From the NCBI GenBank assembly GCA_964036295.1, contig OZ038469.1, positions 8,572,067 to 8,636,066 on the forward strand: 64,000 nucleotides of DNA. The letters are read 5' to 3'. This DNA is from Plumapathes pennacea (lineage: Eukaryota; Cnidaria; Anthozoa; Antipatharia; Myriopathidae). The notes beneath the pieces are model-generated. The model worked only from the letters and a program-made list of their open reading frames with translations. It did no database searches and was not told the origin of the DNA. This document shows, piece after piece, positions 54,592 to 60,149 of this stretch (within the stretch, counting starts at the first letter, position 1; every line of letters starts with the position of its first letter). The position numbers and the translations under genes were made by a program.

Positions 54592-55477
54592 CTAAAAGGA
54601 GAGGAAGGACAAATTCCCGAAAGTATCATAACCAAGACGTGTAACTATTCGTACTTGATCAATAAACTGGGCTAGGTTCCTAACGGTGCCACGAACAATC
54701 ACAGCTCCCTGCTCGCCATGGCTATGAGTGTCCACCAAAATGGCGAGGCCCGAATAGCCAAGTAAAAGGACAGTCTTGCCATCAAAAATAAGTAGAGCTG
54801 CGTTGAAATTCGAGCGTTGGAGGAAGTTCTCCAACTGATATAATAGCGTAGAATGATCATCGCGTAGGGTGATCATCTATAACGCGCACAGGGAGTGGCT
54901 CGGAAACACCTACATCAACGCATGGGGAAGCTACCATTGCGGCTTCAGCCGCCAAAAGAAACCGCGTCGGCAAACTGCCACGGGTGCGGTCATACAGCTC
55001 GTTACCAACTCTTATGGAGGGACGGATAAGTTCTACCCAGGGTACAGGAAGTGAATGGACTTCGGCAAGGGTCGGACGCAATTTTGCAAGGCCATTAGCA
55101 ACGACTAGGGCAATTACACTACAGGCATTGCTGCCGTTGCGTCCATTTAAAGTAGACTGGCTAACCGAAGGTGGGAATTTCCAAGTAAAAACGTCAGTTC
55201 CAATAACCCTTGACCCGGAAACGATGGCTTCACCCGACGTTTCTCCACCCGATACTTCGAGTGAAAACTTGCCATCATCGTCGTCTTCCAGACCGGCTCC
55301 AAAAGCACCACAAGTCGCACGGTTGAATCTTGCGGCCCCATCCACTGCTTGCGCCTTGCAGAAAGCCAGGCCCTTGTGCAAGCAGGCCAGTTTTCCACGT
55401 AGCACTCTGACGCACTTGGAAGAAGTTTCATATCTGGAAACCTGATGATGTAGTTGAATCAACAATGACCTCAGCAC
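54592..55477 (-). pseudogene. Cysteine-protease-like domain at the 3' end of the KDZ gene
   Basis: The frame from 55477 has no ATG start in its first 190 or so codons. It is best read as an internal or terminal exon of the upstream same-strand KDZ gene, although the splice phase from 55546 is not resolved. It contains LNGRNGSNACSVIALVVANG (candidate nucleophile Cys). After a one-base shift near 54860 it contains LLYQLENFLQRSNFNAALLI and AILVDTHSHGEQGAVIVRGT (candidate DxH). A Cys followed far downstream by an Asp-x-His in this setting recalls papain-fold deubiquitinases, including the herpesvirus tegument type. That is inference from motif order only. It ends at 54592. Confidence 0.55.
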
Positions 55478-56125
55478 AAGTGCAATTCAATTGGAAAAAA
55501 AGACAGCAGTACAAAACTGAAGTCTGAAAATTGAAAATAAATTACTTGATTGTCATCGTGGCAGGATGTTTGGGACGACCAACTCGATCCTTCGCTGGAT
55601 TCCCCAATTTCTACAGAGAGAAAACCTTACTATTTTAGTAATACTACAAAACACAAAATATAGCAACAAACCTGTCAACGCTTGCGTAAGTTCCAGTATT
55701 CTCTCTTCTATGGCGGGAATCCGCACGTCAGTGTAGAATTCAATGAAATTCGTCATTTCATTCAGAGAGAGCTGCACCTCCTCTCGCCACCTCTCGGCCA
55801 CTTCAAAGGATTCAACAATCCGACGCTTTGTTCTCAACGGGATGTCTATGAAAATATATAACATAAAGGAAGACAAGTCACTTCTAAGAGTATCTACTCT
55901 CGGCGTGATCAATTTCCCAAGAACTCTAGATTAATGGATGCATGGGAAAGGGAGTACCATGTGAATAGCTCTCCCATGCGAAGTTTCCATTCTCGACATC
56001 AGGCAAGTGTACTGGAATTCCAACAGCGAGGGAGTTGTACTCTTGCACGGCGGATTTTAGTTTGCTATTGTTGTCCGCAATCTGTTTTCGCAAACGGGAA
56101 CGTTGTCTTGAAGTGGCTAAAAAAT

Positions 56126-56302
56126 TAATAATAATAATAACAATAATAATAATAATAATAATAATAATAATAATGATAATAATAATAATAATAATAATAA
56201 TAATAATAATAATAATAATAATAATAATAATAATAATAATAATAATAATAATAATAATAATAATAATAGTAATAATAATAACAATAATAATAATAATAAT
56301 AA
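56126..56302. repeat. (AAT)n microsatellite within a KDZ intron
   Basis: About 175 bp of AAT units with few interruptions (caa, tga, agt). It lies between the exons at 56116-55958 and 56787-56664. Confidence 0.95.
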
Positions 56303-59041
56303 GTGCGTTGGAGCCATGACATTCACCAAAACAAACACTTCAGGTCCTAGTGAGCATCCGGAACTAAAACGTACCGGCCAGTTTGTTAATTGATGCTGCT
56401 ATCTGTACAGAAGTATAGTGTAGCATTTCCATTCTGTGCTGGAGGGTTTCCGGTTTGCCCCGCCCATTTGCGTTACGGAGTTCGCTCTCTTGAGAGAAAA
56501 ACAGAGAGAGAGAGAAAGAAAGAAAAGCGCAATGAATGAGAAATCAACAAAAGTGACAAAATGAGCCGCGGGAAAAGGCAAACAAGAGTAAAGCAAGATA
56601 ACATTCCTAAGAAACCCAACATCCTTAGAAACATGTACACCGCAGTATAAATACAAGATTTACCATTGGCCATTTGAATGACTTCTTCTTTCCAGGTACC
56701 AAGGCTGGAAAGGTAGCTCTCATCCAGATGGCACTCATTCATCAAGGCAGTCGCCTCCTCTCTGGATTGATCTTTCATTTTCAAGGCCTTAAAAATACCA
56801 AACAACAAACACAAACAAAGAAACAACAAAACCACCAACACGATGAAGAAATTAGTGTAATGATGATGTTTGACATAGTAGATGGGTATAATACCTAATT
56901 TATAGGCTTTGTGGTCTTTTGCACATCTTTAACCTGCACTCACCCTTACATATCTTTTCGAAAGAGTGGCACTCATGTTGACGATCTTCCTCCTGTTCCA
57001 TGCCATGACATGTTCGGTCAGCAGTTTATCTCTGGCTGTAAAAGGAAGCAATAACCAACAATTTCTGGTTGAAAGCAGATACAGGTTAGTTGCAGCTGTG
57101 GCACGCATCTCATCACAACATTGAGGCTTACACTCAGGAAGCAAGTACTTGGTGGTATTCCCTCATCTTGAGAGGTAGGCATTTATTTGCTCCACTTCTT
57201 CCCCTGTGGAAGCAGCACTGCCTTTCTGCATTCTTCCTCCCCAAAGAACCTGAGATGAAAGAGTTCATACACTTTTTCATGCACACAAATGATATATGTG
57301 CTATTATTGATTGGGTACATTACAGTACCTGACAAGACCAGCTGTGGGCTTTGGCATGCATAACTGACAAGGCTGGCCTCATCCAATCGCATCCTGTCAA
57401 CAACCCATACTTTCCTGCCCAGGGCCAATAACGGCAGACGACGTCTTCCCAAAAGAACTGAACCCCCGATGAAATCATCTTCTTGATGTGAATGAAGTTG
57501 GCATAGCCAAAGATCTCTCCCTGGTACATGTTGACTGCCCACTGTACAAGTCCATGTCTACAACCAGCTATTTTTAGCCCGGTCTCATCAAGATGCCCTT
57601 TCTTTCTTTGGTGGTTGCCAGCTGCTCTCCAGTGTGTATCTCCACATTTATTTGTTTCATTCCCCTTGAAAAGTGATAACAAGAACATTTTGTATGTTTT
57701 GGAGCACAACCATAAAGGTTGCCACATTAATATTTCAATACAGCATGTACTTTTGAGGAATACCAAACTACACATGAAAATAATTACCTTTGGCCGCTGT
57801 TGTTTGGAATACACAGCACTGATGTGTTCATCAACCTCTTCTTTATTAGCAATAAAAATACCCCCATAATGTGAATCTGCCCTTTGTCTATATGAAGAAC
57901 AAACAAACAAAATTGTGAAAAGAAAAAATATCTTACATGCACTTGATATTCTTCAGGCCGTGCTCATCCTCCTCCTCCTCCTTATCACCGCCACCGCCAC
58001 CGCCACCATCATCATTGTCATCAGATTGAACTCATCATGGCTTCATATAAAATGCAATTTACTATATTACTGTATTTATTGTCATCACATAATTACCTCC
58101 TGAAGTACCAGTATGAAGTACCAGGATGTACATACAAGGGGAATGACCTTATCTTTTTGAATTTGGCATTGTATAATAGGATCTCACTAAATTCTTACCT
58201 TCCAGATGTTTTGTATCTGTAAAGCTTCATATTACCATCCACATGGCATGAATGCTGCTTTATGCTGCACGGAGGACATTTCATCCAGTCCATATGTTGA
58301 AGATTGTAGAGCTCGTGTTGAAAAAACTTCCACTCCCGGAAAGAATGGCTGAATGTTGAGGTATTTATGGTTGATGACTGTGAAAGATATTGTTAACCAA
58401 GTTAACCAAGTTATTCTATTATAACACCTTCATATATTATTGTTATGCATGTTGGTGAGATAATACTAAAAATGCTCACCCTCCCCTTTGGCAGCGGACA
58501 CATCCTCCAGGGCCCTGATGAATGCAGTTCCTGATGTGCCTGGCATCCGCATCTGAAGAGCTGACCACTGAAGGAATAATCTTTGATCAAATATATAACT
58601 GCAGGACTCCACTGATGGTGTGCCAGGCCAGTATCCTGCCTGCACTATCTCTGGCAAGGTGGGTGTGGACACATCCTTCTGGCAACTGGGGCAGGTGTAA
58701 CTTGGTTTGTCCACATCATACCACCCTTGAATTTGAGGTAGAATAATAATTATTGGCAAACTACTATCCTTTTCTGAGAGCACACCCACACAAACAGTGC
58801 ACCTGACAGTCAATGTGATAAACAGACAAAAGGTCATAGAAGTAAAAAGTCACATAAAACATTATCTATGAATAGAAAACTCTCTACTCAAAGTATATAA
58901 CCTTTCTGGTTAACGATCACCAATAATCCACCTCTTTGTTGCACCAAGGGACAAGAGCATACTTGGCAACAGCTTTTCAGCAAAAACGAAGGGCATTTTC
59001 CTGCCATAGAGATTTGCAATATAAATGACCTTATCCTATAA

Positions 59042-59122
59042 GTCATTCATTCATTGGCTATTCATTCATTCGTTCATTCATTCATTTGTTCATTCGTTCA
59101 TTCATTCATTCATGCATTCATT
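59042..59122. repeat. (CATT)n microsatellite
   Basis: About 20 tetranucleotide units with G or T interruptions, in the KDZ intron after 59169. Confidence 0.95.
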
Positions 59123-59367
59123 CTTCATGCAGTCTGTTGCATGCATCGGAAATTTAATGACGACTCACTAGTGAGAGCCAGATCTCCACTCTCAGTGACA
59201 GCAACAGCTGGTGCGATGGCCTCAAAGCAGTTGTTGATGAATAAATCCCGATCGTGGAATATTTTCTGCTCGTGTACGCTGGAGTCGCATTTCCCACAGA
59301 GACTCTTGCCGTCACAGTCCGTGCACCTCACAACAACCGATCCTTCTCTGCACTCCTCGCAAACATC

Positions 59368-59387
59368 GCCACTACTAGCCACTACTA
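59368..59387 (-). repeat. 10-bp tandem duplication inside a KDZ exon
   Basis: The 10-mer gccactacta occurs twice in direct contact. With one copy the exon would read straight from the acidic region into the zinc module. Two copies shift the frame. Confidence 0.9.
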
Positions 59388-60149
59388 AGTGCTTCGTTCG
59401 CAAGAGCCGCTTCAAGGATCGTACCGCGAACACTGCCCCAACTTTCGCTCAATGACACCATTCGCTGCTCCCAGGATTGAACTGGAGGTTTGGCGATTCC
59501 CCCCAAGGCCTCACATCTTCTTAAGGCTTCCTCTAAAGAAGGCTGGTTGTCTACAGGAAAAGAAACAAATTAATCCCTCTATCAAGCTCCATCTCACAGC
59601 ACGGCAGGCACTGCACTAAATTGCGATACTTACGATCATCATCATAATCATCATCAAATGAGTCGCCTGGAGCTCTTCCTCGTCAATGAGTTCTTAAGAA
59701 TAAAATATAGTGTTAAAAGCAACATCAATGCAACAAAGAAGGGACAAACCACACCTGAAGGAGGTGGAGAGTCCGCCCGGCGCCGACGATACGGGTAATT
59801 GGACTTCTTTTTCCCAGTCAGTGGTTCACGGTGGAACTGAAAATGCGACTCCTTCTTTGGCTTCTTAGGCTCTGACGCCAAATTCAGCACGATTTTCGTT
59901 AATTCATCCAACTCTTCCTCGTCAGTCTCCTTTCTCCTTTTGCTTCTAGCACTGACACTGGCCGCCATATTGCGAACGGTTGCTATGCAAACTGCTAGGT
60001 AGCCAGCCAAACGAATGCGTTTGCAAGCAGTTGGAATGATCATTATGATTATTTAGAGGCCTTGTGACAAGTGATCATTATGATTATTTCTTTCCAGAGG
60101 ATGTGTTGCACAACAACATGGTCTCGAACCTGAGATTAAAGATTATTGC

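Follow-up and report, generated by a model that had tools for sequence, protein, structure and literature searches.

The stretch analysed here, referred to as the window, comprises 64,000 nucleotides of the 290-Mb genome of Plumapathes pennacea (C8:8572067-8636066), and all comparisons of copies were made within that one genome. Its minus strand contains a decayed gene that appears to join a Kyakuja-Dileera-Zisupton (KDZ) transposase to a papain-like cysteine protease. The KDZ domain (PF18758) matches the frame 57952-57320 with an E-value of 1.2e-16 and 61.5 bits (curated Pfam cut-off 26.6), and the KDZ-associated cysteine cluster CxC3 (PF18804) is found in 58849-58466 (E 2.8e-19, 69.4 bits, cut-off 26.6). 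A B-box/ZZ-like finger upstream of CxC3 scores under its Pfam cut-off of 27 (PF22586, 24.8 bits, E 2.4e-5). The PF18758 and PF18804 matches confirm an earlier sequence-only reading, which had recognized KDZ motifs on the same strand upstream of a protease-like frame. The frames with the Cys motif (55486-54857) and the Asp-x-His motif (54876-54592) are both open and lie where that reading had placed them; a Pfam search of these protease frames gave no match over any cut-off.

A model of 15 exons (Table 1) was placed by eye from conserved peptides, with the ATG at 59968 as its start and 54594-54592 as its stop codon. Flanking AG and GT were required at the internal boundaries, and the presence of GT-AG there is therefore no independent evidence for them. 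In a translated comparison of diverged copies, the matches fall mainly at the exons, among the matches listed. Exons 5-15 form a single frame across ten junctions, from the KDZ domain through the tail to the protease exon, with the phase carried forward and no base altered; their boundaries were left unchanged after this test. The last junction most likely spans a 104-bp intron (55545-55442), which replaces the 70-bp gap previously read between the KDZ exons and the protease frame. The start of the protease exon, earlier read at 55477, is most likely a CAG acceptor at 55441. The window copy has no Met codon before the Cys. Met codons before the Cys in other copies are not at conserved places.

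Table 1. Proposed exons and predicted catalytic residues of the window copy. Copy C lies on C1 at 3.44 Mb; identities to copies C and E are amino-acid identities from the translated comparison, among the matches listed.
Feature	Position	Strand	Evidence
Exon 1, encodes a basic N-terminus; ATG at 59968	59755..59968	-	ATG, GT donor; 36.5% identical to copy C across 52 residues
Exon 2, short, acidic; boundaries proposed	59634..59678	-	AG/GT flanks, open frame; no homologue comparison
Exon 3, encodes the conserved SLEEAL...SLSESW segment followed by a B-box/ZZ-like zinc finger; frame break near 59375	59169..59550	-	PF22586 below cut-off; homology to copy C
Exon 4, CxC3 cysteine cluster; frame break near 3' end	58480..58725	-	PF18804
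Exon 5, conserved, precedes KDZ domain	58199..58377	-	71% (copy C) and 63% (copy E) identity
Exon 6, KDZ transposase	57788..57887	-	PF18758; homologues; in frame
Exon 7, KDZ transposase core (DETGLKIAGCRHGL, ALSVMHAKAHSWSCQ)	57329..57664	-	PF18758; homologues; in frame
Exon 8, continues the transposase; contains an in-frame stop	57132..57249	-	80% identity to copy C
Exon 9, transposase tail	56944..57035	-	63% identity to copy C; in frame
Exon 10, transposase tail	56664..56787	-	In frame; no match to copies C/E among those listed
Exon 11, tail	56375..56488	-	Homologues; in frame
Exon 12, tail (...GNFAWES)	55958..56116	-	Homologues; in frame
Exon 13, tail (DIPLRTKRRIVESFEVAERWREEV...)	55672..55845	-	60% identical to copy C across 38 residues; in frame
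Exon 14, short linker exon	55546..55610	-	Joins exon 15 in frame
Exon 15, coil, acidic linker and putative deubiquitinase-like cysteine protease of the viral-tegument-like type, stop 54594-54592	54592..55441	-	Acceptor kept in 7/7 copies; fold of relatives
Predicted catalytic Cys (GRNGSNAC)	55121..55123	-	Motif codon counted on the sequence; relatives' alignment and model
Predicted catalytic Asp-x-His (VDTH): Asp 54732-54730, His 54726-54724	54724..54732	-	Motif; relatives' model

In the window copy the reading frame is broken in exons 3, 4 and 15, and exon 8 contains a stop. Its protease domain is interrupted near 54870, with the Cys motif in one frame and the D-x-H motif in another. It is a pseudogene, from which the full protein can no longer be made.

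The same arrangement recurs elsewhere in the genome. A KDZ search gave 18 matches, merged into 17 loci, and a search with the protease domain of a relative (L011) gave 41, merged into 36 loci; these totals are minimum counts, and the 36 leave out any match detected solely by the window's own protein. At six of the 17 KDZ loci a protease match lies at most 5 kb downstream on the same strand, with a spacing of 2125-2879 bp, compared with 0.005 such loci expected by chance under uniform placement, an expectation that clustering of mobile elements would raise. The window copy and the copy at C8:7.87 Mb share 91-93% DNA identity in aligned pieces, and those at C1:3.44 Mb and C2:28.34 Mb share 87-96%; because these two pairs are close kin, the six linked loci represent about four lineages. 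At one additional KDZ locus (C2:24.67 Mb), a piece resembling the viral-tegument-like deubiquitinase (VTD) domain lies on the same strand some 12 kb further downstream. Three of the 11 unlinked KDZ loci were read downstream: one enters what we read as a Gypsy-like retrotransposon, one a minisatellite, and one loses homology within the tail. The acceptor of the protease exon is CAG or TAG, in the same phase, in all seven copies compared (two close-kin pairs among them), and sits 6 bases (9 in one copy) before the same conserved position. The linkage and the in-frame junctions together indicate that the KDZ and protease frames are more than chance neighbours. They support the proposal that the transposase carries its own papain-like protease, with the Cys/D-x-H domain encoded by the final exon of the modelled KDZ gene, found in several diverged copies behind a conserved in-frame acceptor. 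Within this genome the domain is thus not always encoded by an unlinked gene, though copies of it are present apart from any detected KDZ locus as well.

Both parts of the gene bear a mark of purifying selection. Since most of the diverged pairs have reached saturation in the synonymous rate (dS), the gap between the proportions of synonymous (pS) and nonsynonymous (pN) differences was used as the measure. Among diverged copies, the protease pieces have pS of 0.70-0.95 and pN of 0.23-0.56, and the KDZ exon has pS of 0.72-0.96 and pN of 0.20-0.27. In both pieces pN is below pS, which argues that the transposase and protease halves have both been kept as protein. The close pairs, with dN/dS of 0.28-1.13 and once undefined, hold few changes and are little informative. 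A long open frame arising by chance was rejected on the conservation and on pN being below pS.

Structures were predicted for two relatives (L011 and L016) rather than for the broken window copy. The predicted fold is papain-like, and a structure search with both models returned VTD deubiquitinases as the nearest PDB structures; with either model, scores of 15.4-17.1 were obtained for the best VTD and M48 chains. A cysteine-protease fold, which the sequence-only reading had proposed, is thus recovered in the relatives, and the suggested deubiquitinase identity is supported by their predicted fold. Judged from their sequences, the KDZ-type copies have the putative catalytic Cys followed by Asp-x-His, in the same order as VTD deubiquitinases. 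In the model, the Cys opens a predicted helix (residues 32-46), D-x-H is placed on a strand (residues 155-160), and a long, low-confidence acidic linker separates the coil from the protease. In the KDZ-type copies, the predicted catalytic His is followed by S, C, L or R, none of them aromatic, at what we take to be the aromatic gatekeeper position. VTDs lack this gatekeeper motif according to PMC9741609, which also states that ubiquitin is cleaved by every VTD characterised.

PF04843 (Herpes_teg_N) gave no match at E<=1 for the two window pieces and three KDZ-type relatives. The same family matches at least 65 other places in the genome; seven were read, with 90-99% identity and with Cys and DSH kept, fitting a recently active Helentron-type family (L076-L083; L077 was excluded from the Helentron-type alignment owing to a stop). 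Because PF04843 fails on the KDZ-linked domain while matching elsewhere in the genome, this domain was filed as VTD-like and not as peptidase C76. A PDB sequence search with one protein gave 15 irrelevant matches (best E 0.074), the same search with a profile gave none, and two scans of viral contigs for relatives of the protease confirmed none. A tree of the VTD-like domains (13 rows) has long branches, and seven of its 10 inner branches are open.

The closest known counterparts, as far as the available text describes them, are the VTDs of Helitrons and Helentrons (zebrafish DrT1-VTD2, PDB 8ADD; Erven et al. 2022, PMC9741609), which share the papain-like VTD fold with Cys and Asp-x-His, lie within the main protein of the transposon and include the top PDB match of the KDZ-linked domain. 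They differ in that the host element is a rolling-circle transposon instead of one with a KDZ transposase; moreover, the Helentron-type copies in this genome are recognized by PF04843, whereas the KDZ-linked type is not. The large tegument deubiquitinase of herpesviruses (M48/UL36, peptidase C76) is 12-13% identical to the KDZ-linked domain over the aligned part and belongs to a viral structural protein, whereas the protease here is on a transposase. The gene resembles known KDZ transposons in its KDZ domain, its CxC3 cluster and its many exons. Accessory parts on KDZ elements have precedent, since the portions of the literature available to us describe a Zisupton isoform of one fish that carries an F-box (PMC12062965, citing Bohne 2012) and accessory TET/JBP genes on fungal KDZ elements (PMC12730594). 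No deubiquitinase-fold domain is among the KDZ accessory parts described in the available portions of these two articles, and KDZ and Zisupton are absent from the main text of PMC9741609. A KDZ-deubiquitinase fusion was not found in the literature searched, although the founding KDZ paper (Iyer 2014) may mention one.

We favour, with a probability of roughly 0.7, the reading that the window holds the decayed gene of a KDZ DNA transposon, which once gave rise, through splicing, to one protein: a transposase ending in a VTD domain that acted mainly in cis. The KDZ and protease exons would be spliced into one message, and the VTD domain, tethered to the transposase by the coil and the acidic flexible linker, would remove ubiquitin. 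Covalent attachment would direct this activity mainly to the transposase or transpososome itself, and clearing ubiquitin there may protect the transposase from proteasomal degradation and prolong its life. The VTD authors suggest a comparable role for Helitron VTDs in the available text of PMC9741609.

Two observations weigh against a fused product: 30 of the 36 VTD-like loci have no KDZ match in the 5 kb upstream, and further frames that resemble mobile elements (L023, L041 and L071) carry VTD-like domains too. These would suit two separate genes, with a protease from a neighbouring element or a host gene lying downstream of KDZ by chance or co-carried with it. That arrangement is nevertheless very improbable, as the KDZ tail joins the protease exon by in-frame junctions, the acceptor and its phase are conserved in the seven copies, no start codon precedes the Cys in the window copy, and the linkage far exceeds its expectation. 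Moreover, copy G, for which no KDZ match was found, is preceded by an exon similar, by eye, to the KDZ tail. Chance neighbours or a separate gene were rejected on frame, acceptor conservation and linkage.

Two further possibilities retain the fusion and change the role of the protease. Its target could be UFM1, ATG8, NEDD8 or a host protein, as for YopT/AvrPphB-like or UfSP2/ATG4-like papain folds; this is unlikely, given that VTD and M48 chains score best in both models and that, in the available text of PMC9741609, all characterised VTDs act on ubiquitin. Additionally, a conserved Glu (xEAA) may match Glu377 of DrT1-VTD2, needed for the R-x-R of the ubiquitin C-terminus, although the alignment is weak and copy D lacks the Glu. 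Less likely still, the protease could cut the fusion itself, as in polyprotein processing that releases transposase or protease, or act in trans, with ubiquitinated chromatin or silencing factors as its targets. The long acidic linker predicted between coil and protease would suit either role, and the available text of PMC9741609 includes a speculation by the VTD authors on overcoming a limit to transposon inheritance in the male germline; self-cleavage has no cleavage-site evidence in its favour.

If the fusion with deubiquitination in cis is correct, a second, mechanistically unrelated transposon class uses the enzyme class known from Helitrons and herpesviruses, in this case as part of the transposase protein; the proposed control of transposases by host ubiquitin becomes directly testable through one Cys mutation; and herpesviruses could have taken their tegument enzyme from a wider range of elements. 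More broadly, we lean towards the view that a cut-and-paste transposase superfamily carries a covalently attached deubiquitinase under purifying selection in several lineages and that, together with the Helentron-type family and two or three other element-like frames, this would reflect repeated recruitment of VTDs by mobile elements to protect their own proteins against host ubiquitination.

VTD-like domains occur in several other contexts of the genome. A 536-residue open frame (L071:209-1816, minus strand) combines what we read as a homeodomain-like stretch with a proline-rich repeat and a C-terminal VTD-like domain (SNACTFIAL ... VDSHQH), and is possibly another transposon type with a VTD-like enzyme. 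RING-like stretches below Pfam cut-offs precede a VTD-like domain in a 407-residue frame (L023:1213-2433, minus strand) and in a diverged frame (L041:823-1764, plus strand), the latter lying, by eye, between two endonuclease-like frames; in our reading of the sequences, both may unite E3-like and deubiquitinase-like parts in one frame. A related 228-residue open frame (L072:366-1049, plus strand) is without the Cys and D-x-H motifs and is a possible inactivated, retained version of the domain. Paired VTD-like copies, divergently oriented and about 2 kb apart, at L014/L033 (C1:32.4 Mb) and L021/L037 (C1:15.4 Mb) look as if they arose by inverted duplication of an element end.

Target duplications of 8 bp in Zisupton and 7 bp in two Kyakuja families are given in the available text of PMC12730594. 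A terminal-repeat search of 53000-61800 gave no convincing terminal pair, and the compared copies are truncated or incomplete at their edges. Near the KDZ copy, an inverted repeat at 53059-53273 (two 49-nt arms with 94% complementarity, separated by 117 nt) is a small fold-back element. About 0.75 kb of sequence upstream of exon 1 (60253-61000) recurs inverted at 22204-22936 with 85% identity, and 60730-60979 is repeated also at 61276-61538.

The window contains several other element-like frames. A 1550-residue open frame of BEL/Pao retrotransposon type (3164-7813, plus strand) has Peptidase_A17, DUF1759, DUF1758 and integrase zinc-binding domains and a weak reverse transcriptase match. On the minus strand, a non-long-terminal-repeat-like element has an endonuclease and reverse transcriptase frame (36065-38278), which is overlapped by a frame (38082-39200) with a PHD finger just under cut-off. 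A 355-residue frame (41542-42606, minus strand) contains a YqaJ/viral alkaline exonuclease-like domain and a weak SWIM finger.
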